Assembly: GCA_020060775.1 (NCBI GenBank)
Contig: JAGUZN010000158.1
Span: 1-62,188, forward strand
Length of the DNA: 62,188 bases
Source: Armatimonadota bacterium
GTDB lineage: Bacteria > Armatimonadota > Hebobacteria > CAIYQO01
Direction: 5' to 3'
The translations under genes were made by a program, and so were the position numbers. Positions 16,547-59,559 of this stretch are shown in pieces. Every line of letters starts with the position of its first letter. Position 1 is the stretch's first letter. The notes beneath the pieces are model-generated. The model was not told the DNA's origin, made no database searches, and saw only the letters and a program-made list of their open reading frames with translations.

Positions 16547-16582
16547 ACATTGCGCTTGCACATGCGAAGGAAGACTACGCTT

Positions 16583-31067: not shown

Positions 31068-34000
31068 ATGACCCAATGGATCCGTGGCCTTATCGTGGTA
31101 TGCATAGGAGGACTCTCGCTTCACGCCTTCGCCGGCGTGCAGCAGCTCGAACTCCGCGATGTGCTGAACCAAACCTGGAAGCGGGAGTTCGTCGAGTTTC
31201 CGTTTTCTGCACCCGATCAGCAGTGCCACGTCGAGTCGCTGGTTGTCACCGGTCCCAATGGTCCGGTCGCGGCGCAGTTCCTCGCACCAAGCTTTGTCAC
31301 CACGGATACGGCGTTTGTGCGTGAAGCGCGCATCGGCTTCATTATCGATGAACTGCCGGCATTGGGACAACAGACCTATACAGCGGAGTTCGGCGCACAA
31401 CCGCGGCGGACTACGGTGCCTGCCACTGATCTGACGATTACCACACGGGCAGATATGGTGGAGATTGCCACCGAGCATTTCGGATTGCGTGTGCCCGTTG
31501 GCGAACGCACCGGTGCAACCCCACAGGAATCCATCACACCTCCCGCACCCGTGTCGGCACTTCGATTGGGCCAGGAGCCCTGGTATGGCGGCAGCCGTCT
31601 CTACGGCGCCGGCGAGGTTGTTGCCTGGAGTTCGCGACTCACCGAGCGCGGTCCGGTGCGCGCCCGTGTGGAGCAAGAGTATCGTTATGCCGACGGCAGC
31701 CGCCTGCAACTCGTCATCTCTCTGCTTGCCGGGGATAGCCGTGCGTTGTTCGAGAGCCGCTATCAGGGGGCGTTCGACCTCAAGCGATACCACAAGTCAT
31801 TTGCCACCAATCGCATCGATCCGACGGATAAAGCGGGATGGTCACTGCAGTTCACCCCCGCACGCACCGATCTGTCGGTGTTGATCCCCTGGGAGGTGAG
31901 CAGTACACGCGAGGGCATGCTGCAGTCTGGTCACACCCGTGTGCGTGGCAAAAATATGATGATCAATCTCGCCGCCTCTACCCCGGGACTCATCACCCAA
32001 CTGACCCCCTGGGGCGATTGGTGGGAAGATTATACACAAAATGCCTGGACATTTTACGGCGAGGGTGAGACGCCGGTGATGCGCGTGGAGGCGGTAGATC
32101 CTGGGGCCTGGGTTGAGCCGGCGCCCACCGGCACGTTTCGAGGATATGGTGAAGTGATCCCCAAGTGGATGCCGTTGTGGAAGGAACAGGATGGTCCGGT
32201 ACACCTGTATGTCACCAATGTTCCTGGAGAGCGCAAGTGGCTCCTCGGCAGTGCAGCCCCCAGCCTCAATCGTACACTGAATACCGTGAAGGAATACGTA
32301 TTGGATTGGGACAGCACGACCCAACACCCCCACCTCTACACGTCGCCGGATGCGTTGCAGCGTTATTGGAACACGCATGCGCCGAACTCAGCACTCATCG
32401 AAGAGTTGTTTAAAACACAGATAGGCCCCGGTCAGCCTAATGGGCGCAGCGGATGGGTGCTGGAAGCTGGCACGGCCTGCTGGTTGCTCTCCGGCGGGGA
32501 TCCCGAGGTGGCCAAGCGTGTGAAGCTCGTCGCCTGGTTGCATTCGCTGCTGGATAGCCCGGTCGGGTATGACTCGCTATGGAACACCGCGGTCATTTGC
32601 AGCGGTTACGATGCCGTCATGGGCAGCGATCTGGTGACGCCGGAGGAGCGACGGTTGCTGCGCGCCAAGCTCGCTCTACTGGCGTACCGCATTAACGATC
32701 CGACCCATTGGTCGATCGAACGCGGCTACTGCACAGCCAATCTCGATATGAGTGTGAGCAACGAGTTAAATAAAGGGATGCTCGCCGCGACGTTGAGCGA
32801 CCATCCGATGGCAGAGACCTGGTTTGCGAATACGCGCGCCATGATGGAGTACCTGCTCTCCCAAAAACTTACGTCGCACGGTGAATGGCCGGAAACGACC
32901 TCCGGGTATTTCAATGTCAGCTTCACGCCTATCCTGACGCTGGCCATTGCGGCGCGGAATGCCGGGTTGGGCGATTTTGTCGATGACCAGCGCACCAAGC
33001 GCGCCATGACCTTTATGGCGAAATTTTACGCTCCGCCCGATCCGCGCGGCGGCGGCGCCTGGGCGCCGGGGCTGAGTCGCATGACCGGGCTTGGCGACGG
33101 CGCCGGATATCGCTCGGGCCTGCCCGGGGTAATGGCGCGCGCGATTGCCGCGAGCGATCCTGAACTCTCCACGGCATTGCAATGGGTGTGGAAGCGCGCG
33201 GGATACCCGATGAATATCGAGCATTCACGCATGGGCGGATTCCAGTATATATACCTTGATCGCGACCTGCCCGCGAAAGCGCCAAACTGGCGCACTGATT
33301 TGTATCCGCGCGTCGCCACCATCTTTCGAGATCGCCTGGATACCGGCAAGGAAGATTACCTGGTACAGGTCGTGGCCCCCTCCGAACCTGCTCTCATTTC
33401 CGAGGCCGGGGGGATCGCGCACTGGTTCGCCTACGGGGTGCCACTGCTCAGCCACTTTGCCGGCCGTTACGAGTTCCGTCAGGAGGGGTTGGCCAATCGT
33501 GTGATCCTGGCGCGCACGGGGCAGGAGACTCCAGAGCGGCAACGTCGCTCGTCTTACGTCATGCACGAGCATCGCCCCTGGGCGGAGGATCGTCCGGGGA
33601 CGGTGCAGGCGATTGTCGACTTGCCCGCAGCACGCTACAGTCACGCGTATTTCCCCATCCGTGGCGAACGGCGGCTGGCAGGGTCCGAACCATTCGATGT
33701 TCCGGTGCTGCCCGCCGCCGGTGAGGCCACTGCCGCCCACCTGGACTGGCACCGCCAACTGCTCATGGTGACCGACGGTGCGCCCGACAGCCCACGTTAT
33801 CTGGTGCTGCGCGATACGGTCAACGGCAAACAACCCACTCGCTGGATCATGTGGAGCACCTCGGAGTTGCTTGATGTTCCGGCCGCACTGCGCGATGCTG
33901 AAGCCTGCCTTTCACACAAACCCGGCAATTCCAACACCCCTGCGCGTCAGTTGCCGCAGGGCGATCGCTATACCGCATTGGGCAAGTTCGGCGTCGATCT

Positions 34001-34604
34001 CGAATACTTCATCGCATCGCCTGCCGACACGCCGCGCCATACGTTGCGTTGGGGTACCGGCGATCGCCTGGATCTTTACGGTTACATGGCGGGATACAAG
34101 GAGTACGCTGATCTGCTGCACCTGCAGATCCCCGGCGACGGCGCCTATTACGTTGCCCTGTTCCCGCATCCGCGTGGTACGGCAGCCCCCAGCTTCACGA
34201 CACTGGGTGAGGGCACGATCATCCATATCCGGGGTGATTTTGGCGACGATTACTGCTTCATGAGCCGCGAGCCGGCATCAGCAGAGACGGACGTGGTAGC
34301 CTTCCGCGGGCGCGTTGCGCTAGTGCAGCAACGCGGCGACCGACGGATATTCACTCTATTCGACCGCGGGCGCATCCGACAGGGAGCCTATGCGCTTTCC
34401 GCGGAAGTTCCCGTCGCCCTGCAGATTGCTGCCGACCGCCTTGAGGTAGGTCTGCATACCGATGCCGGCGGACAGGTGATGATCACCGTACCCGGAAGCT
34501 GGCGCTGTGAGCAAGCACAGGTTCAGGCGACGGCATTGCACCCCGGCTATTTACTCACCATCCCGGCGGGATTACGTTCTGTCAGCCTGGTGAAAGCGCC
34601 ATGA
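31068..34604 (+). CDS. Secreted heparinase II/III-like (alpha/alpha)-toroid protein, putative polysaccharide lyase
   Basis: This 1178-residue protein has a signal peptide (IRGLIVVCIGGLSLHAFA), an N-terminal beta region (about 25-430), an (alpha/alpha) helical barrel (about 440-720, with RGYCTANLDMSVSNELN and HGEWPETTSGYFN), and a long beta-sandwich C-terminal half including HWFAYGVPLLSHFAG. This order matches heparinase II/III and alginate-lyase-like families acting on uronic-acid polymers. The Tyr/His catalytic residues could not be fixed. GGAGGT precedes ATG 31068. Its stop overlaps the next start (ATGA), so the two are translationally coupled. Confidence 0.5.
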   Translation: MTQWIRGLIVVCIGGLSLHAFAGVQQLELRDVLNQTWKREFVEFPFSAPDQQCHVESLVVTGPNGPVAAQFLAPSFVTTDTAFVREARIGFIIDELPALGQQTYTAEFGAQPRRTTVPATDLTITTRADMVEIATEHFGLRVPVGERTGATPQESITPPAPVSALRLGQEPWYGGSRLYGAGEVVAWSSRLTERGPVRARVEQEYRYADGSRLQLVISLLAGDSRALFESRYQGAFDLKRYHKSFATNRIDPTDKAGWSLQFTPARTDLSVLIPWEVSSTREGMLQSGHTRVRGKNMMINLAASTPGLITQLTPWGDWWEDYTQNAWTFYGEGETPVMRVEAVDPGAWVEPAPTGTFRGYGEVIPKWMPLWKEQDGPVHLYVTNVPGERKWLLGSAAPSLNRTLNTVKEYVLDWDSTTQHPHLYTSPDALQRYWNTHAPNSALIEELFKTQIGPGQPNGRSGWVLEAGTACWLLSGGDPEVAKRVKLVAWLHSLLDSPVGYDSLWNTAVICSGYDAVMGSDLVTPEERRLLRAKLALLAYRINDPTHWSIERGYCTANLDMSVSNELNKGMLAATLSDHPMAETWFANTRAMMEYLLSQKLTSHGEWPETTSGYFNVSFTPILTLAIAARNAGLGDFVDDQRTKRAMTFMAKFYAPPDPRGGGAWAPGLSRMTGLGDGAGYRSGLPGVMARAIAASDPELSTALQWVWKRAGYPMNIEHSRMGGFQYIYLDRDLPAKAPNWRTDLYPRVATIFRDRLDTGKEDYLVQVVAPSEPALISEAGGIAHWFAYGVPLLSHFAGRYEFRQEGLANRVILARTGQETPERQRRSSYVMHEHRPWAEDRPGTVQAIVDLPAARYSHAYFPIRGERRLAGSEPFDVPVLPAAGEATAAHLDWHRQLLMVTDGAPDSPRYLVLRDTVNGKQPTRWIMWSTSELLDVPAALRDAEACLSHKPGNSNTPARQLPQGDRYTALGKFGVDLEYFIASPADTPRHTLRWGTGDRLDLYGYMAGYKEYADLLHLQIPGDGAYYVALFPHPRGTAAPSFTTLGEGTIIHIRGDFGDDYCFMSREPASAETDVVAFRGRVALVQQRGDRRIFTLFDRGRIRQGAYALSAEVPVALQIAADRLEVGLHTDAGGQVMITVPGSWRCEQAQVQATALHPGYLLTIPAGLRSVSLVKAP

Positions 34605-35716
34605 CGCCGCACGAACGTCTCCAGGCCTATCTGCATTGGCATCCGGTTGATCGTCCGCCACTGGCGGAATGGGGGCCGTGGGAGCTGACGCTGGCCTGCT
34701 GGCAACAGGAGACCGGCTTGCCGACAGATGAACTGCTGGCCTGGCAGGATGACTGCGATGCCACCGTCGATCCGGGGGTCGATTTCGCCATGCGCCCCGC
34801 GTTCCCCGAGGAAGTGATTGCCGAGGACGATGCGACTGTCACCCGACGAGATGGTATGGGACAGGTATACCGGGTGTTCAAGGATCACCCCGATCAGTCC
34901 ATGCCGGAGTTCATCGGCTTCCCGGTGCAGGGTTGGGAGGATTGGCTGCGGATCAAGCCGCTGTTCGACCCGCACGATGCCGGGCGCTATCCGGAGGACT
35001 GGACCGCGCGCGTGGCCCGCTGGCGGCAAGAGGGGCCGATCGTGAAACTGTACGGATATGTCGCCCACTATTACGGCGGTCCCAGCCTGTTCGGTTTCGT
35101 GCGCATGCTTATGGGACCGGAGCGCGCACTCTATGCCTTTTACGACGAGCCTGAACTGGTGCATGATATGATGGAGACTTCAACCGAGTTTTCCATCGCC
35201 GTTCTCGACCGGGCACTGCGCGAGGCGCCAATCACATACGTGCAGTTTTGGGAAGACATGTGCTACCGCAACGGGCCGCTCATCTCGCCGGCGTTGGTGC
35301 GCGAATTTATGGTGCCGCGCTACCGGCGCATCACCCAACGCATCCGTTCCGCGGGGGTCGACACGATTTGCGTCGACAGCGATGGCGACGTGAGCACCCT
35401 TATCCCGCTCTGGCTGGAGTCGGGCATCACCGCCATCATGCCTTGCGAGCAGGCGGCGGGGAACGACCTCTTTGCCTATCGTGCGCAGTATGGCCGTGAT
35501 CTGCTGCTGTTTGGTGGGATTGATAAGCGTGCGCTGGCGCAGGGGCCGGAGGCCATCGACGCCGAGTTGGCGCGCATCGCCCCCCTGGTGGAGATGGGGG
35601 GCTATGTACCCACGCTGGATCACGCCATTCCACCGGATGTCAGTTACGCCAACTTCCAGCACTACTGGCGTCAGAAGCGCCGTTTGCTGCAGATTGCCGA
35701 TGCTACGGCAACGTGA
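34601..35716 (+). CDS. URO-D family methyltransferase-like protein 3
   Basis: This 371-residue protein overlaps the preceding gene by 4 bp (ATGA). It keeps the URO-D opening (MTPHERLQAYLHWHPVDR) and TIM-barrel spacing but has VDSDGD where MtaA-like proteins have His-x-Cys, and TLDHAIPPDV near the C terminus. Zinc methyltransferase chemistry is thus doubtful; an Asp/His site may have replaced it. Tight coupling to a secreted lyase-like gene is notable for a cytoplasmic enzyme. A terminator follows after 5 bp. Confidence 0.65.
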   Translation: MTPHERLQAYLHWHPVDRPPLAEWGPWELTLACWQQETGLPTDELLAWQDDCDATVDPGVDFAMRPAFPEEVIAEDDATVTRRDGMGQVYRVFKDHPDQSMPEFIGFPVQGWEDWLRIKPLFDPHDAGRYPEDWTARVARWRQEGPIVKLYGYVAHYYGGPSLFGFVRMLMGPERALYAFYDEPELVHDMMETSTEFSIAVLDRALREAPITYVQFWEDMCYRNGPLISPALVREFMVPRYRRITQRIRSAGVDTICVDSDGDVSTLIPLWLESGITAIMPCEQAAGNDLFAYRAQYGRDLLLFGGIDKRALAQGPEAIDAELARIAPLVEMGGYVPTLDHAIPPDVSYANFQHYWRQKRRLLQIADATAT

Positions 35717-37128: not shown

Positions 37129-37956
37129 TCAGGGGTGTAAGCCTGTGCGCTGTTCAAAGCGGCGTGCGTTCTCGCTCATCACTGCATCGCGCCAGGCGAC
37201 CCCGAGGCGCTGGGTGAGCCGGGTGGCCAGCAGGCGCAGTTTATCCACCGCCGGCAGCACGAACGCGCTGGGGGTAAAGGGCTCGGGGGCGCCGCAGAGT
37301 TGGGCGGCAAACGGGTAGTCCAATCCGGCGACGATGCGTTCCTGCAATAATCCGAGCAGGTCCCATCCGGCAAGGTTGTCCAGGCACATCCCCTCGCGGC
37401 TATCAAAGTCACCCAAGCAGAGAAACAGGTTTGGGGCGGCATGGGCGGCGATCAGCGCTTCACGCCAACAGAAGCCCCCCCCATGCAACGCGACCATGTG
37501 CAGGTGTGGACATGCCTGGGCGATACGTTCCAATTCGACCGGATGGTAATCGTCGCTGACCCCCAGCCCTGGCAAACCAGGCACCGGCGCAGGAACGCTG
37601 CCGGTGTGCAGCACGACAGGCATGCCCAGCCGTTCGGCTTCACGGTAGTAGGGCAGAGCTTGCTCGGAGCCCAGCGGCCCGCCCGCTGACAGCACCTTCA
37701 GCCCTCGAAAGCCGGCGTCACGATAGTTGTTGATTTGTTCGACGGGGTGGGTGAAGTCGAGCAACGCGAAGGGGATGAAGAAATCCGGGTGCGCCTGTGC
37801 TGCCGCCAGTACCGCAGAGTTGCCCAGACAATACGGCCCATCCACCGCCAGCAGCCAGACGTGGTCGACCACCTGGCGATATTCCGCGACCAGTTGCTCC
37901 ACCTGCTCGGGCGATGACCACCCGGCGGCGAGGTGCATATGACAATCAATATACAT
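37129..37956 (-). CDS. Amidohydrolase-2 family metal-dependent hydrolase
   Basis: The start is ATG 37956, overlapping the end of the upstream gene by 11 bp; the longer open frame reads through that gene. The 275-residue TIM-barrel protein begins MYIDCHMHLAAG with the metal-binding H-x-H, and has LHTGS and VALHGGG as further ligand strands and LDYPFA near the C terminus. PF04909 members hydrolyse lactones or decarboxylate aromatic and sugar acids. In a sugar operon with dehydrogenases a lactonase role is plausible, but inferred. Confidence 0.75.
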   Translation of the reverse strand: MYIDCHMHLAAGWSSPEQVEQLVAEYRQVVDHVWLLAVDGPYCLGNSAVLAAAQAHPDFFIPFALLDFTHPVEQINNYRDAGFRGLKVLSAGGPLGSEQALPYYREAERLGMPVVLHTGSVPAPVPGLPGLGVSDDYHPVELERIAQACPHLHMVALHGGGFCWREALIAAHAAPNLFLCLGDFDSREGMCLDNLAGWDLLGLLQERIVAGLDYPFAAQLCGAPEPFTPSAFVLPAVDKLRLLATRLTQRLGVAWRDAVMSENARRFEQRTGLHP

Positions 37957-40606
37957 GGTTGGCCTCGATTCCATAGAGCGTGAGCGACGGATCCAGTCCG
38001 GCCGACAATACGTGATAATCCGGCACAAGAATCGGTGTGTCGTCATCGGATTGCGCGAAGTCACGTACTCCAGTGAAATGGGACGTGACCACCAAAGTCG
38101 GATCACCGTCACGGTGGCGGTGTGGGCCGAGCAGGTTGAAGGCCGTGGTGGTTAACTCAACCACGATCCGGTGTTCGCCACTCGCGAACGGTGTTGAGGC
38201 CGTTACCGTCCAGCGCGGACCCCAACACCAACCGAGGTCACAGTCATCCACCGTTATGCGGGCGGCTGCCCCCCGCGCTGCCAGTCCCAGGGCATAGAAG
38301 GCCTCCGAAGCGGTAAAGCGGGCTTCATAGCGCACTGATCCGGTGTAAAACGGGTAGCCCTCCGCCACCAGCTCGGAACCTTTCCATGCTTCGGTCGATA
38401 GCGGTGACAGCGTAAACGGCCCGGCGTTCTTCTGGGTGCCATGGGGCCCAGGCTGCCAGGGCTGGGGGGTAAGTACGGCGAACTCCCCGGCGAGCCAGAT
38501 GCGCGGTGGGGTGGGGTCATCCCAGGGTTGCGCGAAACGGATCATTACGCGATGTCCTCCCGTGGAGATGGGCACTGGCAGTGCACAGGCATATAGTCCA
38601 GCGACACACGCCGCTTCAGGGAGAGCACCGATCGGTAGGCTGTCCAGGACAATACCTTCAACTGGCAACAGGGATAGTAGTTGGAGTCCGGGTTCCAGTG
38701 TTCGCACGGCGTTGAACGAGAATAGGCAAGTGCGGCGCGTGGCTCCCACGGCATCGGCATGGTCCAGCGGGAGGAGGTTCGGCGCTTGCCGCGTTGCCTG
38801 CCAGCGGCACTGCACCGTGTGACCGGTGTGTTCTCTTGCCAACTTACGTGGGTCGCCTCGCTTCACTTCTCCCGGGAGCAGGGAGATAGCCAGGGGGTCT
38901 GGAGTCCCCGCGCAGCGGATGTGCACGGTGGCGGTCGCGAACGGATCGGTGTTCACCAGCATCAACCGGCTCTGCGCGCCTTCGGTGAACACCTCGCCGC
39001 CGACGGCAGCGGGGAAGGGGGTGGCGGCCGTGATGGGTAGGGTCAGCTGTTGCCGCATTCGTCCGATAAGATCCGGCACCGGGGCATCGCGTTCATCGAA
39101 GAGCAGCACTCCCGCGTCAGCAGCCTGTTGGATGGTGGCTTCAGCCTGCGCATTCAGCACACATCCGGGCAGGATGAGCAACGCCTGGTAACGGCAAGTG
39201 CCCACACACAAGCCATTATCGCAGGCTGCATCCGCCTCGAAGTCCCGCTCATTTACCACATCATAGCCGAGCAGTTCGCTATCCAGGGTGTGGAGTCGCT
39301 GCAGGATCGACCGGTTTACTTGTCCACCGGGCGATTTCGCGTAGTCGACAGCGGCATGCACGTCCAGCAGAGGACGTTCCAGCGGGCGCAGACGCTCCAT
39401 AAGACCGCGATAGGGCACGATGACCAGCACCGGGTGGTGAGCCTGCCGCACATCGACCCCTGACTCTCGCCACCCTGCGAGCAGGGTGGGCCAGGCCTCG
39501 CGATAGGGCTGATGTAACGGCACGGAGGGAGGCCAGTCGTGCACGGCCAGCGGCGTGAACTGATACTGTGCCTGGTGCAGCACCAGCTGGTCGATACCGT
39601 GCATTGCCAGCCAATGGCCGTAACTCCAGTAATGGCTCGGCGCCATGCCCCAGCCCCCGCCGCCGGTGCATTCGACTAACGCGGGCAGACCATGCTGGCG
39701 AATCGCGGTGGCCGCTTCGCGGAGGAAGTAGCGCTCGCCAGGGATGCGCTCCAGCATATCGGCACCCACCCGACCCATCGCCCGGTACAACCAGGTGCAT
39801 GGCCCGCTGAACCAGAGTTGAAAATATGGATGCTCCTCCCCTTTGAAATGCCCTTCCCAGGCAAGTCCACGCGCGCGACATCCCTCGACCAGTGGCGTGA
39901 CAAAGCGCTCGCGGAAGAGGTCGGCGCATAATTCGTAGAAGTGGCGACGCGTGCCAGCGCTCCCAGGATGATCGAAGAAGAGCTCGCGCAATCGCGGCAG
40001 CAGGTCATCGCCATATCGGGCAGCATACTCTGCCGCCAGATCATCGGTCCAGGGGATGGCGCCCCACGTGGCATTGACCGGCGTGATTGAACCATCATCA
40101 AGCGGACCGAACTGCGGTTCATCGCAGAAAAAGCCATGAAACGCCGGAAGATCGGCAAGGGCCTCACACGTCGGGTGATAGGTCAGTGCCCAGAAACGCG
40201 CGGCTGTGCGTGGGTTGAGCGTATCGGCATAGCGTCCCCATTCGCGCACGAAGACACAGTCGCCGTCTTCGCCGACAACCGTCGCCAGCGCCGGGATTTC
40301 ATGGCGTGCATACGCGCTCACCCAGGACTGCGCCAGCGCCGGTTCATCAGCCAGCAAGCGTCCATCGACACTGGGGGCGGGCCAGCCATTTTCGTCCTGG
40401 AGGTAGATGGCTGCTCCCGGATAGGCGCTGATAACCGTGTTGAGCACGGAGAACCATTCCGGGGAGAGGTAGGCAGGCGGCGGTTGGTAAAACCGCGGTT
40501 GCATCACCACGCCATCGAACCCGGCGGCGAGTAATTCGCCGAGTTGTGCGATCATCTCGTGTGCGTTGAGCGGTGCATTCAGTGCCCAGAAGCTGTAGAT
40601 ACGCAC
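37946..40606 (-). CDS. GH106-like alpha-L-rhamnosidase
   Basis: This 886-residue protein shows the GH106 pattern: an N-terminal TIM barrel with GFDGVVMQPRF, YLSPEWFSVLN, IYLQDENGWPAPSVDGR and the acidic FFCDEPQFG (about residue 178), then domains ending in a C-terminal galactose-binding-like beta-sandwich (RITVDDCDLGW). The start is GTG 40606 with GAGGGGAGC upstream and overlaps the preceding gene by 28 bp. There is no signal peptide. Substrate rhamnose is inferred from the family; it may act on other deoxysugars. Confidence 0.65.
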   Translation of the reverse strand: MRIYSFWALNAPLNAHEMIAQLGELLAAGFDGVVMQPRFYQPPPAYLSPEWFSVLNTVISAYPGAAIYLQDENGWPAPSVDGRLLADEPALAQSWVSAYARHEIPALATVVGEDGDCVFVREWGRYADTLNPRTAARFWALTYHPTCEALADLPAFHGFFCDEPQFGPLDDGSITPVNATWGAIPWTDDLAAEYAARYGDDLLPRLRELFFDHPGSAGTRRHFYELCADLFRERFVTPLVEGCRARGLAWEGHFKGEEHPYFQLWFSGPCTWLYRAMGRVGADMLERIPGERYFLREAATAIRQHGLPALVECTGGGGWGMAPSHYWSYGHWLAMHGIDQLVLHQAQYQFTPLAVHDWPPSVPLHQPYREAWPTLLAGWRESGVDVRQAHHPVLVIVPYRGLMERLRPLERPLLDVHAAVDYAKSPGGQVNRSILQRLHTLDSELLGYDVVNERDFEADAACDNGLCVGTCRYQALLILPGCVLNAQAEATIQQAADAGVLLFDERDAPVPDLIGRMRQQLTLPITAATPFPAAVGGEVFTEGAQSRLMLVNTDPFATATVHIRCAGTPDPLAISLLPGEVKRGDPRKLAREHTGHTVQCRWQATRQAPNLLPLDHADAVGATRRTCLFSFNAVRTLEPGLQLLSLLPVEGIVLDSLPIGALPEAACVAGLYACALPVPISTGGHRVMIRFAQPWDDPTPPRIWLAGEFAVLTPQPWQPGPHGTQKNAGPFTLSPLSTEAWKGSELVAEGYPFYTGSVRYEARFTASEAFYALGLAARGAAARITVDDCDLGWCWGPRWTVTASTPFASGEHRIVVELTTTAFNLLGPHRHRDGDPTLVVTSHFTGVRDFAQSDDDTPILVPDYHVLSAGLDPSLTLYGIEANHVY

Positions 40607-43600
40607 GCAGCGCTCCCCTCATATCGCACCACCACCGATGCGCCGGCGGGGATGACGCCCTGGTAACGAAAGCGCGCCAACGGCGGAAAGCCATCTGTCC
40701 CGCGGGCGACCACCGGTATATCATCCGCATGCGGATTATGCAGTTCGACGCGCCAGATCTCGCCCTCCGGCAGAGCATTGATCGGGACATCGGGTCGGTC
40801 GCAGATGACCGGATGCCCGACGAAAAGCTCGGTGTTGCCGCGAGTGAGGTCGCAAGTGGTATAGCCTACCCCTTCGCGCTCGATAATGCCTAACGGCAGC
40901 GCCGTATCTCGCGCGATATCGGCGACCCACGCGCCCCACACGGGGTTGAGCCCGGCCACACGTACGGGAAGACGTATGGGCAGATGTGCCTGTGTGAGGT
41001 CCACGCGCACATACCCGCCTTCGGATTCCAGATCAAGCAAGAAATTAGTCCCGACGCAATGGCCATGACGCACGGTGACCTGGTAGGCCGGGTCGCCGCC
41101 GATGCCCATCGCTCCGGCAAAATCACGCCACTCGCGATCAGTGGGCGGGGCGTGCACTCTCCCTCGTGTCGCCAACAGGCGATAATGCACGCGCTCTCCC
41201 TTGCGTACCGTCCGTCCACCCAGCGGCAGCCCGAAGCGTACGAGCGAGGTGGGGCGCTGCATCTCGCCCACGACCTGGTAACCGGGGTCGAGCGCCATCA
41301 CGGTCACGGCGCCTAAGCGGCTGGGATAGAAGGTGATGAACCCGCCAGGCTGTAGCTCCCCTGCAATGAACACGGGCGTCCCTTCAGGGATAGCACCACT
41401 GCAGTCGCCACCGATAAGCCCTACGGCAGAAAAGGCGGCATTTGTGCTTTCGTTACATTGGCCGAACATGCGCAACACCTGTGGGTTGACGGCATGTCGC
41501 GGATCAAGTACGCCATCGCGCAGGAAGACCAACTCACCTTCCACTAAGGTGACGCCGGGGTCGCCGGCGTTCTTGCCGAAATCAGTCCAGCGGATGGTGG
41601 CCGTATACAGCGGCGCTTCCTCGACAGGATCTGCGGCCACCCAGGCGGAGGCCCGGGGATTGGCATACCAGCCGATGAGATCGCTTTCCTGGATGATCGC
41701 ATCACGGCAGGCCAACGGATTGGCCATGCGGCTGGCCGGGATGCCTTCCGGCGTTGGTATATCAGCGTAGGCGAGTTCCGGCAGGCTGCCATGCGACATC
41801 AGACTGCCGCCGCCGCCATCCACATAGGGGGCGGCATGGTCGCCATTCGGGTTGGCGAATCCCGGGTTGAAGTACGGCCACATCGTGGTCTTGCGCTGGT
41901 AAGGCGTGGCCGGTCCACAGATGAACACACGCCCATCATGTTGGCGCAGCACGGCCAGGCTGGTGGTATTGCTGCGATCACGGCACATATTGCGCGCGAA
42001 CAGCAGGTCTGCGCTGTTCATGTGTGCGCTCAGGGTCTGTCTACCGAGTTGATCGGTGGCGACCAGTACCAGGTGGCGCTGTCGATCGTGCGGCAGGTGG
42101 CAGGTCAGTGTATAGGAGGTCTCGCCGGCCAGGGTGTACCGGCGCAGGCGATGTGGACCGTCGTAGAGCGTGATTTCGCGCAAGCCCGCAGGGGATTCCA
42201 CGGCGGCATGCAGCACGAACTGTTCGTGGCCGGCGATCGGCTCCCGGCAGCCCTGCACGGCGCGCACATTATTGAACCCCCGCCAATCGATGATCATCGG
42301 ACCTTCACCGGCGAAGAAGCGCTCCTCGCCACCCAGCCCATGGCGCGCAAAGGCCAAGCGCAGTTGCTCGCGCAGGGAGACGGCACTGCTTCGCGGCACG
42401 AGCGGACGCTGATCGGACATCATGTTCAGGCGGATTACCCCATCCGGGGAGAGGAGCACGCCGGTCCAATGCGCGGAGGATCGAGCAACCTCCGCCGGCG
42501 CGTCGATGAGATCGACCACCAGCGGCGCAACGACATCTTCGATCTCCTGGCGCTCCAGGTAGGCCTCGAGCGCGTCGTCGATAAGGATGCCATGTTCGTA
42601 GGTGCGTACAGCCATCGCGCTCATGGCCGCGTACGTCCAGGCGGGGCGTGGGTTATGCCCGATATCGATGGGAGCGGTGAGCGGGGAGAGCGCATCGAGA
42701 ATCCAATGGGCCACCAGAATGCGCCTCCCATCGTCACTGCAATGGTGGGCGTCCGGGTAAGCGCATTCGCCCAGCGCAATCCAGCGTGCGCCTACCGCGT
42801 CGCGATAAAAGAACCCGGGCACGGCCAGCACCCGCTCGGTGCTGGCTTGCGCACACTCCGCCTTTACCGCATCCCAACACTCCGGGGTGAGTTGGGCGAA
42901 ATCTTCCGTGATACCAATGAAGTCCAGCCCGGCCTCGGCGGCGGCAGCCACGTAGTCCGCCACCGATCCTGAACCGCCGGTGCGTTGGGTGCGTGCACCG
43001 ATCAACCCACGTCGCGGCACAGTGGGCGAGGGGCCGGGGGAGAATTGCGTCCAGTCGATGGGGGGCGGCGGAGGCGCGTAGTCGTCCGTTGGCCACCGGC
43101 TGTCGCCATGCGTGCCATGGAGCGGTTCAGCAGCCCAGGCATACAGGCGTTCCTGCAGCAGGCCGAAGTTGCTGGGATGTTGTCCATCGCCCCTGCTGAG
43201 CATCACATCGCCGTATCCTGCGTGCCCCACGCCGAAGAATGCGAGCACCGGGCTCATGCCAATCACTGCGACTCGTCCCTGGCCAACTGATCGGATCGCT
43301 ACGAGTGGTGGCGAAGTGACATACGTGCCTTGATGATCGGTGAAGAAGAACGGCACGACCATATCGGCGGGATTGGCGGGTACACTCCGCGCGCTCGGCA
43401 TACCGGAAACCAGCACTGACCATTCCGAGGATAGACGAAATGGCACCGTCATGGGGCCATGGTGAGAATTGGTTGGATAAAACACCCCATGTACTCCCTC
43501 GGTGAGTAGATGAGGCGTGATGTTGGTGGTCCAGGCATATTGGTTGAAGATCTCGCCGAGAGGATATACATAGGCATGCCTCTCATCCAATACCTGTTCA

Positions 43601-44004
43601 TACAGCACTTCCGCTTCCCAGGGTGCGAGCAGCCGGTTCATCTGCTGCATGCCGTTGAGCAAGCCCTGGAAGAAACAGACACCGTAGAGCACCAGGCCGC
43701 CTCCTGCCTCGACAAAGCGCCGTATAGATGATTCCGCGGCATGCAGGGTCTCCGGATGGAGACGCCAGTTGAGGTTGTAAGCGGTCAACGATTCGCCCTG
43801 CGGGTATTCGGGGATGATAATGGCATCATAGGGTGCAAGACGCTCGTCGGTGATGGCATGGAAGGGCAGACCATCGACCCGATAGCCCTGTGCGCGCAGG
43901 TGACGCACCAGGGGCACATCCTCCGCACGATTGGGGCGACCCCACTCGGTGACCGGTGTTCCCCACTCGGTTATGACGCAAAGCGCGTACTGTTGATCTG
44001 ACAT
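40579..44004 (-). CDS. Large protein with GATase-like N terminus and PHP-like domain
   Basis: This 1141-residue cytoplasmic protein opens with an alpha/beta GATase-like domain (about 1-310: YDAIIIPEYPQG, FVEAGGGLVLYG). Residues about 335-600 resemble a PHP-type TIM barrel (AAAAEAGLDFIGITEDF), but the opening His-x-His is replaced by RGLIGARTQ, so metal binding is doubtful. The remaining half is beta-rich. The start ATG 44004 follows GGGGGACGATC. It heads the four-gene operon 44004-35930 behind operator 3a. Family and activity are unknown to me. Confidence 0.45.
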   Translation of the reverse strand: MSDQQYALCVITEWGTPVTEWGRPNRAEDVPLVRHLRAQGYRVDGLPFHAITDERLAPYDAIIIPEYPQGESLTAYNLNWRLHPETLHAAESSIRRFVEAGGGLVLYGVCFFQGLLNGMQQMNRLLAPWEAEVLYEQVLDERHAYVYPLGEIFNQYAWTTNITPHLLTEGVHGVFYPTNSHHGPMTVPFRLSSEWSVLVSGMPSARSVPANPADMVVPFFFTDHQGTYVTSPPLVAIRSVGQGRVAVIGMSPVLAFFGVGHAGYGDVMLSRGDGQHPSNFGLLQERLYAWAAEPLHGTHGDSRWPTDDYAPPPPPIDWTQFSPGPSPTVPRRGLIGARTQRTGGSGSVADYVAAAAEAGLDFIGITEDFAQLTPECWDAVKAECAQASTERVLAVPGFFYRDAVGARWIALGECAYPDAHHCSDDGRRILVAHWILDALSPLTAPIDIGHNPRPAWTYAAMSAMAVRTYEHGILIDDALEAYLERQEIEDVVAPLVVDLIDAPAEVARSSAHWTGVLLSPDGVIRLNMMSDQRPLVPRSSAVSLREQLRLAFARHGLGGEERFFAGEGPMIIDWRGFNNVRAVQGCREPIAGHEQFVLHAAVESPAGLREITLYDGPHRLRRYTLAGETSYTLTCHLPHDRQRHLVLVATDQLGRQTLSAHMNSADLLFARNMCRDRSNTTSLAVLRQHDGRVFICGPATPYQRKTTMWPYFNPGFANPNGDHAAPYVDGGGGSLMSHGSLPELAYADIPTPEGIPASRMANPLACRDAIIQESDLIGWYANPRASAWVAADPVEEAPLYTATIRWTDFGKNAGDPGVTLVEGELVFLRDGVLDPRHAVNPQVLRMFGQCNESTNAAFSAVGLIGGDCSGAIPEGTPVFIAGELQPGGFITFYPSRLGAVTVMALDPGYQVVGEMQRPTSLVRFGLPLGGRTVRKGERVHYRLLATRGRVHAPPTDREWRDFAGAMGIGGDPAYQVTVRHGHCVGTNFLLDLESEGGYVRVDLTQAHLPIRLPVRVAGLNPVWGAWVADIARDTALPLGIIEREGVGYTTCDLTRGNTELFVGHPVICDRPDVPINALPEGEIWRVELHNPHADDIPVVARGTDGFPPLARFRYQGVIPAGASVVVRYEGSAACVSTASGH

Positions 44005-52544: not shown

Positions 52545-53570
52545 ATGACTTCAATGCGCAAGTTGGCCATGCTGGCTGGCGTTTCGGCGTCAACCGTCTC
52601 GCGCGCGTTGCGCAACGACTCGCGCCTGCGCCCTGACACGATTCAGCGCATTAAAGAACTGGCGGAAATGTATCAGTACCAGCCCGTGCAGTTCGAACCC
52701 GCGTTGAGTACGGAACAAAGCCGGGTGATCGGGTGCATTATTCCTCGGGTTTCGTCACCGTTTTTCGGCTACATCTTGCAGGGCATTCTCGAGCAAGCCT
52801 TTCAGGCCTCGTACAAGGTGATTACCCTGCAGACCAACGCCGATTTCCTGCATGCCTGCAAAGCGCTGCAAACGCTGGTCGAATTGCGCGTGGCCGGTAT
52901 TCTGCTCTGTAGCGGCAGTTCTGCCGAACCGATTCCCAGCGCTTCACTGTTTGAACTCTGGAGTCACGAGATCCACGTGGTCGGCATGCAGGACACGCCT
53001 GTTGCACAGTCGATCGATCAGATCGCCTCTGACGAGTTGCAGGCCGCCAGCCTCGTAGTGGACTACCTCTGCAGCCTGGGACACCGTGAGATCGCCTATC
53101 TCGGCCCACAAGTGGATATCCTGACTCGCAGCAAAGCTTTCCGGCATGTGTTGAAACACCGGGGGTTGTCGACGCAATGGTTCTGGGACGTGCACCCCGA
53201 ATCGCGACTCGAGCAATTGCTGGCATTCTGGAAGAGCAAACCAGCGGCACCGACGGCGGTCGTGACGTACAACGATACTATCGCCGCCGAGTTTCTGCTG
53301 TTTGCTGTGCGGCATGGGCTGCGGGTGCCGCAGGAGATGAGCGTTGTCGGCTTTGCCAATGTGCAGCCGCTCAACAACTATCTGTTGCCGCCCCTCACCA
53401 GCGTGGAGCAGAATCCCGTGGATATCGGGCGCCAGGCCTTCATGCAACTCTTACGCCGCATGACTGCTGATGAGGCGCCAGGAAGCTATCGCCCTGGGAC
53501 CACTCGTGTGGCGGCCAATCTCGTCAAGCGGGAATCGTGCAGCCACCCGCGACGCAATGCCCGATTATAA
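52545..53570 (+). CDS. LacI-family transcriptional regulator
   Basis: This 341-residue protein has a LacI-type helix-turn-helix at residues 4-30 (MRKLAMLAGVSASTVSRALR) and hinge region to about 60, then a periplasmic-binding-protein-like sensor domain (IIPRVSSPFFGYILQGILEQ; VVTYNDTIAAEFL). Such proteins bind sugars or sugar phosphates and pseudo-palindromic DNA. GGAGG precedes ATG 52545. Palindromes of one type sit on both sides of the gene and at three other promoter regions in 21.7-44.1 kb, so it is the obvious regulator of this set. Confidence 0.9.
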   Translation: MTSMRKLAMLAGVSASTVSRALRNDSRLRPDTIQRIKELAEMYQYQPVQFEPALSTEQSRVIGCIIPRVSSPFFGYILQGILEQAFQASYKVITLQTNADFLHACKALQTLVELRVAGILLCSGSSAEPIPSASLFELWSHEIHVVGMQDTPVAQSIDQIASDELQAASLVVDYLCSLGHREIAYLGPQVDILTRSKAFRHVLKHRGLSTQWFWDVHPESRLEQLLAFWKSKPAAPTAVVTYNDTIAAEFLLFAVRHGLRVPQEMSVVGFANVQPLNNYLLPPLTSVEQNPVDIGRQAFMQLLRRMTADEAPGSYRPGTTRVAANLVKRESCSHPRRNARL

Positions 53571-53638: not shown

Positions 53639-53693
53639 GTAGACAGGCGTGGCATTATACGGAAATCTCAAGCCGACGCCGGTCGAGACCACT

Positions 53694-54743
53694 ATGCTTG
53701 TTCATGAATCCAATCTGTCATCGCCGAGTTTTGCACAGATGTTAGCGGTATTGCACCGTGAGGCTCCGACCCGTCCCACCCCGTTCGAATTTATCATCAA
53801 CCGAGATCTTTGCGTACGGTTAGCCGGGGCAGCATACGATCAGCAGGATCCGTGGCTGGGCCTGTATCGCCTGCGCATCACCGCGTTCCACCGCGCTGGT
53901 TACGATTACGCCCCGGTGCAGGGCTCGCCATTCCATTTTCCCACCGGAGCATTCCATGTAGCCAGCACCCGCTCGTTGAACGAAGGATGTCTCATTACGG
54001 ATCGCACATCCTTTGCGGCCTACACCTGGCCGGACCCCGATGCCGAATCGTACGACCGTTTAATCGACATTACCCCTGAGCTCCCTGCGGGCATGCGCCT
54101 GATCGTGTTCGGGCCCGGTGGGCTGTTGGAGAATGTGATTAGCCTCGTGGGGTATGAGAATCTCTGCTTGCTGCTGCTTGATGATCCTGATTTGACGGCG
54201 GCGATCTTCGACGCTGTCGGCTCGCGGCTCCTGCGTTATTACGAGCATTGCGCACCCTACGAGACCGTGGGCGCAATGATTGTGAACGATGATTGGGGGT
54301 TCAATACGCAGACATTTTTGTCTCCGGCCGATCTGCGGCGGTATGTCATTCCCTGGCATCGCCGCATTGTCGAGGTCATTCACGCAGCCGGAAAGCCGGC
54401 GATCCTGCACTCCTGTGGCAACCTTGCGGAAGTGATGGATGATATCATCGACGATATCAAGTATGACGGCAAACATTCCTTTGAAGATAGCATTTGCCCG
54501 GTGGAGGACGCCTACGAATTATGGGGAGGACGCATCGCCATACTGGGCGGCATGGATGTGAACTTCCTCTGTCAGGCATCGCTTGAGGAGATCCGCGCAC
54601 GTAGTCGTGCCATGCTGCGCCGCACGACTACACGGGGCGGATACGCATTGGGTTCGGGCAACAGCATCACGAATTACCTTGATGATGCGCGTTACTTCGC
54701 CATGATGTCCGCGTTGACCGATCCGATAGGGAAGGACGCCTGA
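53694..54743 (+). CDS. URO-D family methyltransferase-like protein 4
   Basis: The start is placed at ATG 53694 (349 residues) because the predicted transcript begins near 53645 and because this aligns the N terminus with relatives; GTG 53649 is open in frame but would be nearly leaderless. The protein has the URO-D barrel and HSCGN, the His-x-Cys of corrinoid methyltransferases. The C-terminal ligand loop reads GSGNSITNYLDD without Cys. It heads an operon with two ABC transporter genes, implying that its substrate is what the transporter imports. Confidence 0.7.
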   Translation: MLVHESNLSSPSFAQMLAVLHREAPTRPTPFEFIINRDLCVRLAGAAYDQQDPWLGLYRLRITAFHRAGYDYAPVQGSPFHFPTGAFHVASTRSLNEGCLITDRTSFAAYTWPDPDAESYDRLIDITPELPAGMRLIVFGPGGLLENVISLVGYENLCLLLLDDPDLTAAIFDAVGSRLLRYYEHCAPYETVGAMIVNDDWGFNTQTFLSPADLRRYVIPWHRRIVEVIHAAGKPAILHSCGNLAEVMDDIIDDIKYDGKHSFEDSICPVEDAYELWGGRIAILGGMDVNFLCQASLEEIRARSRAMLRRTTTRGGYALGSGNSITNYLDDARYFAMMSALTDPIGKDA

Positions 54744-54773: not shown

Positions 54774-57521
54774 GTGATGCGAACGAGCATGCCCATCATC
54801 ATCATTGCCGCTTTGCTCGCGCTGTGTGCGATTCTCTGGCCGCGTCCCGACCGTTCCCTGGAGAAGATCGAAGGGGCGCGCGCGGCGCAGATTCAACTGA
54901 AGCAGAAAATGTATTTCGGCGCGGCCGGGCTGGACATTCAGGGACAGGCGCAGAACGCCATCCTGCACGGATTCGCCCGCAAACGCCCGGACGTCGCCAT
55001 CCTCCCCTGGAATATGTTTCGGCTGCCCGGCAACCTCTACAACGCGCAGGATATGCTGGCCTTTGCCGGCAAGACCGCGGCAGATATCCAGGCATGCTAT
55101 TTCCATCAAGTTGTCTACTACCGGCAGCAAGGTTTGCTCATGCCGTTGAATCGTTGGATTGGCGATGACGACAACGGCAACGGTGTGCTGGAAGACGCCG
55201 AGATCCGTTGGGAACCCTGGAAACGGGTGCCTCCCGTCCAACAGCGCATGGCCATGGAGGGGACGAAGATTTATGCGATCCCGACGGAAACGTTCATTGC
55301 CGGCATCGTCTGGCGACGCGACCTGTACAGTGAGGCGGGGCTCGACCCACGCCAGGGCCCGACAACCTGGGACGAACTCTGGCGCTTTGGTCAACAGTTG
55401 ACCGATCCGACGAAACGCGTCGCCGGTTCCCAGACGATCGGCCAGTTTGCCGCCCCCGCTGATTTCGCCCACTCGCTGTTTTACGACCTTCTTTACCGCG
55501 CCGGCGGTGATCTTGCGCGTGGAGAGGTGCGCCGTGCCGGCGCCGCCAGTACCGAGCCTCCGTTGTATACGTTCAGCTTCAGTGAGGATCCCTACCAGGG
55601 ACCTGATGGGCGACGTTATCGTGCCGACGAGGTGCAGATTCGCTATAAAGCGACGTTCAACTCGCAGGTTGCCAAGGACACGCTGGCCTTTATCCGCAAG
55701 TTGCGTTTCTCCCCATGGACTCGCTGCCCGCATTGTGTGGCCGCGGGGGTGAATGCGCCGATCGACCTCACCGAAGCACAGGTCAAGGCGCAGACCGGCG
55801 TCTGTCCGCAGCACGGCCGGTTTGCCCTCGTCGAAGAAGGCCCGAATCAGCTGATCCGCGGCATCCTGCTGCCAGCGTTCAGCCCTGATAACACCGGCGA
55901 CATGCTGCAACGGCTGAAAATCGGGAAAGTCGCCATGTTGGCCACGCCCATCGATGCTCGCTTGATGACCTTTTCGCCGCGCGCCATTGGTTTTTGCGCC
56001 GCACCATCCCCCCGCTCGGGCGTGCAGACACCAATCGTCGGCATCCCGATGTTTTACGGTGTTTCCTCGGATATTGCCGATGCCGACAAGCAGCAGGCCG
56101 CGTGGGAGTATCTGGCCTACCGCCTGGGCCCAGAGGCGAAAACTATTGAGGCGCGCGTGTACGCTGAAAATGGGTACGCCGCCTTTGTGCGACCGCGCGT
56201 GCTGCGTCTTGCCGGATTGGACGAATACCTCAGTGAGGTGCCGCCCGATTGGCAAATCGCTTATGCCGCCATGGAGGGGAACACCAGAACGATCCCCTAT
56301 GCCTCGGGATGGCTCCCGCTGGAAACCGAGCTGTGGCCCTTCCTGAAAGAACTCGTCAGTCAGGAGCAGTTCGATTGGCGGGCGCGCGTCGATGATATCG
56401 TCGCGCGTGGCAACGTGAAATACTTCGGCGATATCAGCGAACAGACCGGGAGAAAGTATACGCTGCTGGTCACCTTGTTATGTATCGCCGTGTTTCTGGG
56501 GGTAATCGTTGCCGCGGTGATCATCGTACGCGAGCGGGCACGGGAATCTGCGGAAAGTGCGATCCCCGGCTCGGCGCCCGGCCGCTCACGTTACCTGACC
56601 ATCGCCGCGTGGATGATGCTCATGCCAGCCATCGGGGCTATCCTGCTATGGGCATATTATCCCCTGGTGCGCGGGGCGTTGCTGGCTTTTCAGGATTACC
56701 GCATGCGCGGGCCCATTGAGTGGGTGGGGGTACGCAACTTCATCGAAGGGTTGCTCACAGGACACTTCTTGCACTCGCTGGTAAATACCGTCTATTTTGT
56801 CATATTGATGATGACGATTGGCTTTGCCGTGCCCATCATCGTCGCGATACTGCTCTCCGAAGTCCCGCGCTTCAAGTATTTCTTCCGCACGGTGTACTAC
56901 CTGCCGGCGGTCACGACCGGCCTGGTCATTACCCTGCTCTGGATGCAGTTCTACCAGCCCACCGAGAGTGGTTTTCTCAATGCGCTGCTCAAGCCGTTGG
57001 TGATGGGGATTAACGACCTCTGGCAGCACATCACGCGCGATTCCCAGGCCATGCTCATCCAGTATCCGATTCAGTGGTTGCTCAATAAGAAACTGGCGAT
57101 GTTCTCGGTGATCATTCCTTCCGTGTGGGCTGGCGCCGGCCCAGGGTCACTGCTGTACCTGGCGGCATTAAAGACGATCCCGGAGGAGATGTACGAAGCC
57201 GCCGACCTCGATGGCGCCGGCCCGTGGCAGAAGCTCCGTTACGTAACGCTGCCTTATCTGCTGCCGATCATTCTCATCAACTTCATCGGCACGTTCATCG
57301 CCAGCTTTCAGAACATGGGCAATATCTTCATCATGACCGGCGGAGGGCCGGATTATGCGACCCATGTCGTGTCACTGGAGATCTGGTTGAATGCCTTCTC
57401 CAATTTGCGCTATGGCGTAGCCACCGCGCAGGCCTGGATGCTCGGTTCCATTCTGATCGGATTTGCCGTGCTGCAAATGCGCCTGCTGAATCGTATGAAC
57501 TGGCGCAGGGCTGAATCGTGA
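54774..57521 (+). CDS. ABC sugar transporter: solute-binding domain fused to MalF-type permease
   Basis: This 915-residue protein starts at GTG 54774 or ATG 54777 behind GAGGAGGAAAG. An N-terminal TM anchor (about 6-24) leads to a family-1-like extracellular solute-binding domain (about 30-560). Inside it is an unusual Cys4-like insert, CPHC (318-321) and CPQH (344-347). A TM helix (about 562-585) links to a MalF-type permease (about 605-915) with an EAA motif at about 805 (EAADLDGAGPWQKLRYVTLP). The usual separate lipoprotein and permease are thus one chain. No ATPase gene is in the window, so a shared MsmX-like ATPase elsewhere is expected. Confidence 0.85.
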   Translation: MMRTSMPIIIIAALLALCAILWPRPDRSLEKIEGARAAQIQLKQKMYFGAAGLDIQGQAQNAILHGFARKRPDVAILPWNMFRLPGNLYNAQDMLAFAGKTAADIQACYFHQVVYYRQQGLLMPLNRWIGDDDNGNGVLEDAEIRWEPWKRVPPVQQRMAMEGTKIYAIPTETFIAGIVWRRDLYSEAGLDPRQGPTTWDELWRFGQQLTDPTKRVAGSQTIGQFAAPADFAHSLFYDLLYRAGGDLARGEVRRAGAASTEPPLYTFSFSEDPYQGPDGRRYRADEVQIRYKATFNSQVAKDTLAFIRKLRFSPWTRCPHCVAAGVNAPIDLTEAQVKAQTGVCPQHGRFALVEEGPNQLIRGILLPAFSPDNTGDMLQRLKIGKVAMLATPIDARLMTFSPRAIGFCAAPSPRSGVQTPIVGIPMFYGVSSDIADADKQQAAWEYLAYRLGPEAKTIEARVYAENGYAAFVRPRVLRLAGLDEYLSEVPPDWQIAYAAMEGNTRTIPYASGWLPLETELWPFLKELVSQEQFDWRARVDDIVARGNVKYFGDISEQTGRKYTLLVTLLCIAVFLGVIVAAVIIVRERARESAESAIPGSAPGRSRYLTIAAWMMLMPAIGAILLWAYYPLVRGALLAFQDYRMRGPIEWVGVRNFIEGLLTGHFLHSLVNTVYFVILMMTIGFAVPIIVAILLSEVPRFKYFFRTVYYLPAVTTGLVITLLWMQFYQPTESGFLNALLKPLVMGINDLWQHITRDSQAMLIQYPIQWLLNKKLAMFSVIIPSVWAGAGPGSLLYLAALKTIPEEMYEAADLDGAGPWQKLRYVTLPYLLPIILINFIGTFIASFQNMGNIFIMTGGGPDYATHVVSLEIWLNAFSNLRYGVATAQAWMLGSILIGFAVLQMRLLNRMNWRRAES

Positions 57522-57546
57522 GGCTTTGCAGCGTCGAGGAGTAGTC

Positions 57547-59559
57547 ATGCCGATCATCTCGCATATAGGTCGTAAGACGCTCACCATGCGGCTGGCCATC
57601 GCCCTGATCTATCTGGTACTGATCCTGGGCGGGTTGACCATGATCTATCCTTTTGCCCTCATGGTATCAGGGTCGGTCACCAATGCTGCTGACCAGCATC
57701 GCCAGACGCTGCTGCCTGGCTATTGGTTCAGCCGTGATCTTCAGTTCACCAAATATCTGGCCAATTTGTATCATCCGGCCATGCCGAATGATCCGCTGGT
57801 GCAGCGGCGCGATCTGATTACCCTCTATTACACCGGCGAGAGCCGGGTGCGCCTGGAGGTCGCCTATGACGACGAGCAGTTCATTGCCCACGGCGTACCC
57901 GAGGCAGCGGCGATCGAGGCGCATCCCGAGCAATTTGTGCCGATGCAAGAAGACTGGCGGCGCTTCATCGCTGATCGTCCTCCTCTGCTGTTGATGACGC
58001 TTAACGAACGGAAAATTACCGATCTCTACAGCGCCTATCTTAGGGAGAAGTACCGGGAGTTAGCCCGGCAGCATTATACAGGCACACGCCTGAGCACACG
58101 TGCACTGGATGCCGCGGCTTTACGCCTGATCAATGCGGCGCACGGTATCGGCTACCCATCGTTCGATAAGATTCCCCCGATTGCCGAGCCGATCTTCGTG
58201 CCCTCCTGGGTACCTGACATGGGCAATCAACGTCTACAGGACTGGCTCGTCTTTAAGAGCACCGTACTGCAACGACAGCACCCGCACTTGCTCCAGCCCG
58301 TGACCGGCCGGCAGTTCTGGTACGATTATCTGGTCAAGCGCTTTGGCGATGCCACGGCGTATAATCTGGCGTACGGCACCGACTACTCTCACCTGGCTGA
58401 GGTGCCGTTTCCACCGTTGAACGATGCCGTCCCCGATGCGTATCCGCTCTGGGGGGACTTTGTGCGCGAGGGGTGGCCGGTGCTCCTCACCCGCATCACC
58501 CCCTCTGCCGCACTCGACACCGCCTGGCGGGGGTATCTGTTAGCGCGGGCAGCCGGCGATCCGGGCTCCTTCACCGCGCGTTTCGGGGTGTCTGCTGATG
58601 CCCCGGTCGCTCGACAACTACCGGCGACGTTGCCGCTTGAAGAGGGGACACGCCTGCTCTCCTCTTGCTGGGCGAAATTCGTGCGCGAGCAGGTGCCGGC
58701 TTCCGCACGGTCACTGGAACTCCCCGAGCATGCGTGGGCCGATTTCTTGCATCGCGAGTATGCCAACCCTTCGGCGCTGCCGGTGGCATACAGCAACGGA
58801 ACTGCCGGTTTTCAGCAGGTCGAAATGCCGGTGCGCCAGACAACATATGCCTACTGGCTCCAGCATCGTGGCGCGATTTTCCGAAGTTTTCTGTTCGATA
58901 ACTACATCGAAGTGTTTCGCTACATCGCTACGCGTGGGCGTGCTCTACCCAATACACTGATTTTGGTGGTGCTCACTCTCCTGTTTACCCTTACGGTGAA
59001 TCCCATTGCCGCTTACGCCCTCTCTCGTTTCCGACTGAAACAGACGCAAAAGATCCTGCTGTTTTTCATTGCCACCATGGCCTTTCCGGCGGAGATCGCT
59101 TCCATCCCATCCTTCCTGCTCATGCGTGATCTGCATTTGCTCAATACGTTCTGGGCGATTGTCATCCCCGGCATGGCGAGCGGATTTTCGATTTTCCTAT
59201 TGAAGGGCTTCTTCGATAGCCTGCCGCAAGAATTATATGAGGCTGCACAGATCGATGGCGCAGGGGAGTATACGATCTTCACCGAGATCTGCCTGCCGCT
59301 GACCACGCCGATTCTCGCCGTGATCGGCCTGAACGCCTTCACGCTTGCCTACAGCAGTTGGGCGTGGGCCATGCTAGCCTGCCAGAAGGAAGAGATGTGG
59401 ACGCTCATGGTCTGGTTGATGCAAATGCAACTCGGGTGGCACACCCCGACCAGCCTGATCATGGCTTCGCTGGTGGTCGCCTCGCTACCCATGCTTTTCG
59501 TATTTTTGTTTGCCCAACGCATCATCTTGCGCGGCATGGTCGTGCCGGAAATGAAGTGA
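57547..59559 (+). CDS. MalG-type ABC permease with a large extracytoplasmic insertion
   Basis: The start ATG 57547 follows CGAGGAG. The 670-residue protein is more than twice the usual length of about 280. TM1 lies at about 15-40; a hydrophilic domain of about 400 residues (45-445) follows; the remaining TM helices and the EAA motif (EAAQIDGAGEYTIFTEICLP, about 563) form a normal MalG-type core. The insert shows no family I know; by topology it should face outward and could contact the fused binding domain of its partner. It is last in the operon. Confidence 0.8.
   Translation: MPIISHIGRKTLTMRLAIALIYLVLILGGLTMIYPFALMVSGSVTNAADQHRQTLLPGYWFSRDLQFTKYLANLYHPAMPNDPLVQRRDLITLYYTGESRVRLEVAYDDEQFIAHGVPEAAAIEAHPEQFVPMQEDWRRFIADRPPLLLMTLNERKITDLYSAYLREKYRELARQHYTGTRLSTRALDAAALRLINAAHGIGYPSFDKIPPIAEPIFVPSWVPDMGNQRLQDWLVFKSTVLQRQHPHLLQPVTGRQFWYDYLVKRFGDATAYNLAYGTDYSHLAEVPFPPLNDAVPDAYPLWGDFVREGWPVLLTRITPSAALDTAWRGYLLARAAGDPGSFTARFGVSADAPVARQLPATLPLEEGTRLLSSCWAKFVREQVPASARSLELPEHAWADFLHREYANPSALPVAYSNGTAGFQQVEMPVRQTTYAYWLQHRGAIFRSFLFDNYIEVFRYIATRGRALPNTLILVVLTLLFTLTVNPIAAYALSRFRLKQTQKILLFFIATMAFPAEIASIPSFLLMRDLHLLNTFWAIVIPGMASGFSIFLLKGFFDSLPQELYEAAQIDGAGEYTIFTEICLPLTTPILAVIGLNAFTLAYSSWAWAMLACQKEEMWTLMVWLMQMQLGWHTPTSLIMASLVVASLPMLFVFLFAQRIILRGMVVPEMK

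Follow-up and report, generated by a model that had tools for sequence, protein, structure and literature searches.

In Escherichia coli, loop P1 of MalG and loop P2 of MalF contact MalE, according to the title of Daus 2007 as cited in PMC3150292, and the serving of several sugar importers by one ATPase is described as known in a passage of PMC7658222. A large addition to MalG has been reported in the Thermotogales, where MalG1 and MalG2 carry approximately 500 hydrophilic residues between transmembrane helices (TM) 1 and 2; passages of PMC2246101 describe this region as similar to no known protein, as present in no other MalG and, in 2008, as being of unknown function. A literature search gave no later account of the region, and MalG1 and MalG2 are the closest printed precedent that we found for the permease described here, a comparison made by description alone. 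Searches of open papers brought up no publication that describes the repeats or the SBP–TM–MalF fusion presented below.

Here we analyse a permease gene, G (57547–59559, 670 amino acids, with a TM1–TM2 insert), in a 62,188-nucleotide stretch of DNA from an Armatimonadota bacterium, hereafter the window; G, its partner F, the features within them and the two genes 5′ of F described below are all on the + strand. The frame of G is open from a TTG at 57526 to 59559, and we place the start at the ATG at 57547, with GAGGAG just 5′ of it and homologues that begin with 'MPIIS.VGRK'. Pfam, NCBIfam and an alignment of homologues assign G to the MalG/UgpE type. Its sole Pfam match, BPD_transp_1, covers the C-terminal third (residues 475–671 of 677) with 36.8 bits against a cut-off of 26.4. 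UgpE and MalG are its nearest NCBIfam models and, because the scores (85.5 of 297 bits and 70 of 261 bits, respectively) fall under both equivalog cut-offs, G is by that rule a relative of these proteins and not one of them. The permease core, TM2–TM6 (58897–59556, from Pfam, AlphaFold2 and Foldseek), is confidently modelled by AlphaFold2 and groups in Foldseek with LpqY-SugABC (SugB), MalG and AlgM2. The EAA coupling loop, placed by the homologue alignment at 59221–59301 (LPQELYEAAQIDGAGEYTIFTEICLPL), reads ELYEAAQIDGAGE, with E, A, D and G invariant in all 18 alignment rows. A single-protein search of genome contigs with G returned only permeases matching in the core; there was no match in the viral contigs search, and none spanning 80% of the query in the plasmid search. 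Full-length homologues of around 34–39% identity are present in many families, which rules out an assembly chimera, a frameshift or chance.

Hydropathy places one TM at residues 16–34 of G and the next only at 471–489, followed by the usual core. Together with the AlphaFold2 model, in which TM1 spans residues 12–43 (57580–57675), this gives a topology of TM1, approximately 430 residues without a TM, and then five TMs. When G is aligned to 11 plain permeases, its additional residues start after TM1 and stop before the 'DNYIEVF' segment, delimiting an insert of 409 amino acids (57685–58911, residues ~47–455, including the NY.. segment common to plain permeases). The EAA loop of MalG/UgpE-type permeases is cytoplasmic; in G it comes after TM4, and because TM2, TM3 and TM4 lie between the insert and this loop, the insert is extracytoplasmic. 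A cytoplasmic insert is ruled out by the TM count and the EAA position. The insert is mainly helical in the AlphaFold2 model of G made with plain permeases as the alignment, with pLDDT mostly below 50, and again mostly helical when modelled alone, with a mean pLDDT of 38.1.

Immediately upstream lies F (54774–57521, 915 amino acids), in which an N-terminal anchor is followed by a solute-binding (SBP) domain of the SBP_bac_1 kind, a TM and a MalF/UgpA-type permease. The earlier note on this DNA, which had proposed a MalG-type permease with a large hydrophilic insertion of about 400 residues after the first TM, directed outward, and a fused partner, was thus right on every one of these points. 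Within the solute-binding part of F, at ~55743–55832, there is a Cys-rich, zinc-ribbon-like stretch (CPHC...CPQH); the F proteins of L067 and L070 have CxxC pairs there and that of L066 is CxxC-like, and other F proteins are without cysteines. The same genome encodes a second SBP–MalF fusion of 998 amino acids (G000:C120, L062:6000–8996), with no adjoining G in the fetched stretch.

On the evidence of its sequence, the insert is an array of helical units of approximately 60 residues rather than one unknown domain. A motif profile built by iteration found 86 segments in 18 inserts, with the best of 360 shuffled inserts reaching 4.1 bits, and a profile made from only the last unit of other genomes still detected a second unit in the window insert (E = 8 × 10⁻⁸). 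The five profile segments in the window insert make up four units, namely unit 1 (57952–58179), split by ~19 residues into segments 57952–58065 and 58123–58179, unit 2 (58237–58413), unit 3 (58447–58596) and unit 4 (58666–58830). Across 29 homologues, the window included, there are two to five matched segments each; the same profile found no units in F proteins. Each unit is laid out as a helix (F..fL..rY), a second helix (l..lN..ygt), a loop (sf..v..P) and a third helix (dW..F), and is best conserved at N, P, W and F.

The unit profile matches parts of solved glycosidases of the GH-A barrel kind. Against the PDB it found the GH42 β-galactosidase 1kwg (residues 154–195, E = 1.9 × 10⁻⁹), the GH14 β-amylase 3voc (E = 3.3 × 10⁻⁸), the β-1,2-glucosyltransferase 7vkx (E = 5.9 × 10⁻⁷), the β-agarase 4bq4 (E = 1.4 × 10⁻⁶), which we take to be a GH50 enzyme, and a GH167 enzyme (E = 1.3 × 10⁻³). 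Taken in register (helix–helix–loop–helix), the unit matches 1kwg at 156–215 over 54 of 63 profile positions; in the enzyme barrel, this segment presumably comes directly after strand four. Pfam Glyco_hydro_42 matches 13 of 18 homologous inserts individually, and the window insert has no Pfam match even at E = 10. The whole GH42 A-domain barrel is absent, the best Pfam stretch, in the homologue of L063, spanning positions 145–191 of 376. Catalysis would not be expected because the barrel is missing, and an active glycosidase is ruled out on the same ground.

Long proteins encoded by the host genome carry the unit too, and all five of those scanned match Pfam GH42 above the cut-off. In several of these GH-like proteins the unit stands directly after an NE or DE/EE motif, presumably the acid/base glutamate (E141 in 1kwg). 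A reverse profile was made from 13 own-genome GH-like proteins, no permease included. In 28 of 29 G homologues it picked up segments scoring more than 5 bits, with a best score of 46.6 bits; 1,015 shuffles reached 6.6 bits and F proteins stayed below 0. On the window insert this profile scored just 10.1 and 10.9 bits, so that the insert's own tie to GH42 seems weak and rests largely on its homologues. The earlier note had seen no known family in the insert, which stands for the window protein in Pfam and fails for its relatives; the search of structure databases that it proposed links the unit profile to the glycosidase structures above. One own-genome GH42-like protein (G000:C245, in L093 and L096) has two unit copies ~86 residues apart, and duplication of the unit therefore also occurs in enzyme-like proteins.

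These matches suggest that the units are related to the excursion after the acid/base strand in GH42-like barrels, here without the barrel. Convergence on a common helix–helix–loop motif, with the insert as an independent helical repeat, would be in keeping with matches that span just ~40–60 residues, yet significant scores were obtained in both directions, whether with solved structures, with Pfam or with own-genome proteins, and the matches reach into the third helix; we regard it as very improbable.

F and G belong to a gene row headed by a LacI-type regulator (52545–53570, Pfam) and including a URO-D/MtaA-like methyltransferase gene (53649–54743, Pfam and NCBIfam) that ends 30 bases 5′ of F, and glycan genes abound in the neighbourhood within the window (GH20, GH94, GH95, GH36 and others). 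Across loci, only F and G recur widely: a URO-D relative lies near F–G in 4 of 21 loci compared (window included) and a GH94-like neighbour in 2. Conserved neighbourhood was rejected as a guide to the substrate on this account. Other features of the neighbourhoods include four URO-D/MtaA-like methyltransferase genes in the window (24781–25803, 27754–28800, 34601–35716 and the one 5′ of F), five long open reading frames of 712–1,178 amino acids amid the glycan-degrading genes that remain unmatched by Pfam at E = 0.001 (9360–12206, 16550–18688, 31068–34604, 37946–40606 and 40579–44004), and, in family f16 (L074, L078 and L160), a small conserved open reading frame of 131–202 amino acids beside G ('KSGLYY.HY..L.GT.LK.YGEEA'), which ends immediately 5′ of G in L074 and L078.

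One possible reading is that the units form a carbohydrate-binding surface that captures glycan chains and passes them to the tethered SBP, with sugar recognition as the main role. The ordinary home of the unit in its own genome, in GH42-like proteins, and the glycan genes of the window speak for it. We nevertheless think it unlikely: the positions best conserved in the unit (N, P, W and F) appear structural, a five-residue insertion after AWGT in the 1kwg segment is absent from the permease units, and in four loci of the large family f15 F lies beside housekeeping-type genes, one of which we take to be RecA, and not beside sugar or glycan genes. The earlier note had proposed that the importer may serve long or bulky oligosaccharides, which would sit less well with the gene context of those four loci.

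The insert and F occur together across the host phylum. Among 291 genomes, the insert (E ≤ 10⁻²⁰) is present in 148, from 23 families, and F (E ≤ 10⁻⁵²) in 139; both are present in 135, G only in 13, F only in 4 and neither in 139 (Fisher P = 2.5 × 10⁻⁶¹, uncorrected for kinship, the genome counts not being independent). A single insert match was counted by eye in 132 of the 148 carrier genomes. Of the 16 loci L063–L078, 11 have F adjoining G; of the remaining five, L064 ends at a contig end, and in the other four no F adjoins G and each genome has exactly one F elsewhere. F and G are equal in number in 15 of 17 genomes compared, the exceptions being two fragmented assemblies, the window's own genome (four G matches, three F) and G044 (five G, two F). 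Among 13 sampled genomes of the same class or family, none had the insert at E ≤ 10⁻²⁰; one of the same family as the host (G002) encodes an F of 59% identity whose gene reaches the end of its contig. In family f20 (L076:7323–9335 and L077:7775–9787), the G core carries, besides the insert, an extra hydrophobic stretch that is likely a TM pair.

Divergence of the insert bears on whether it takes part in transport at all. For 29 F–G pairs, the distances of four parts correlate at 0.895–0.923, and on corrected distances the insert gives partial correlations with the SBP part (0.317), its own core (0.239) and the MalF core (0.073); on a first version of the distances, the insert–SBP partial correlation given both cores was 0.481, a value reached by 0 of 999 permutations, and all these correlations are weakened by saturation and kinship and may have their source in shared ancestry. 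A passive spacer, or a contact with the envelope (peptidoglycan or outer membrane) that has no direct part in transport, would account for the fast evolution of the insert (mean p-distance 0.755 versus 0.395 for the core) and for its variable number of units. It fits less well with the co-occurrence of the insert and the SBP–MalF fusion even where the genes are unlinked, and with insert distances that follow the SBP part best, and we consider it quite unlikely.

The reading towards which we lean, with some reserve, is that the insert serves the tethered SBP as a docking arm without catalytic function, built from glycosidase-derived units. F and G would together make up the membrane portion of a single CUT1-type sugar importer, powered by a shared MalK/MsmK-type ATPase. 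No ATPase gene was found among the scanned window proteins; the genome has just one OB_MalK-type protein (G000:C15), encoded away from F–G, and this is probably the ATPase that serves them. With the SBP domain tethered to the MalF half in F, and the periplasmic P1 loop of G enlarged into an arm of tandem three-helix units of ~60 residues, the arm would be a scaffold for docking and guiding, holding the binding domain above the permease mouth as MalF P2 and MalG P1 do in E. coli, and may touch the sugar at hand-over. A docking arm is the simplest reading of a system in which P1 is the enlarged loop, the opposite half carries the attached SBP, and both peculiarities occur together. A long arm would not be indispensable, since five f15 genomes have an insert of only 240–303 residues with two matched segments. 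That a phylum-wide importer has multiplied glycosidase rim pieces in its outer loop as a glycan-guiding channel, coupling SBP to gate and feeding in long chains, is a further idea that we hold to be rather improbable.

The insert illustrates how a transporter can come to have a large outer domain when part of an enzyme fold is borrowed and multiplied. The sequences also provide a handle on a two-part importer that half of the phylum's sampled genomes encode, and a testable idea for the huge TM1–TM2 regions of some MalG proteins, an oddity known from the Thermotogales since 2008. As described in passages of PMC2246101, MalG1 and MalG2 resemble G in having TM1 and TM2 separated by a large hydrophilic region (~500 residues there, 409 in G); those passages mention no fused SBP–MalF partner, whereas G has one. 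The possibility, raised against the outward insertion in the earlier note, that it is a common known MalG variant is therefore half borne out, the insert being common in the phylum and having, in those passages, a precedent of like position and size. The GH42 β-galactosidase 1kwg and GH14 β-amylase share with G the helix–helix–loop–helix segment of ~60 residues, which lies after the acid/base strand in the enzymes; there it is part of a barrel, whereas in G it is tandemly repeated inside a permease that lacks one. Like E. coli MalFGK2–MalE and UgpAEBC, F–G has a BPD_transp_1 core, an EAA loop, a MalF/MalG pair, an SBP of the SBP_bac_1 kind and, putatively, a MalK-type ATPase encoded elsewhere in the genome. 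Unlike them, it has no ATPase gene among the scanned window proteins, the MalF TM3–TM4 loop of F shows no large domain, and it combines an SBP fused to the MalF half with a greatly enlarged MalG P1.
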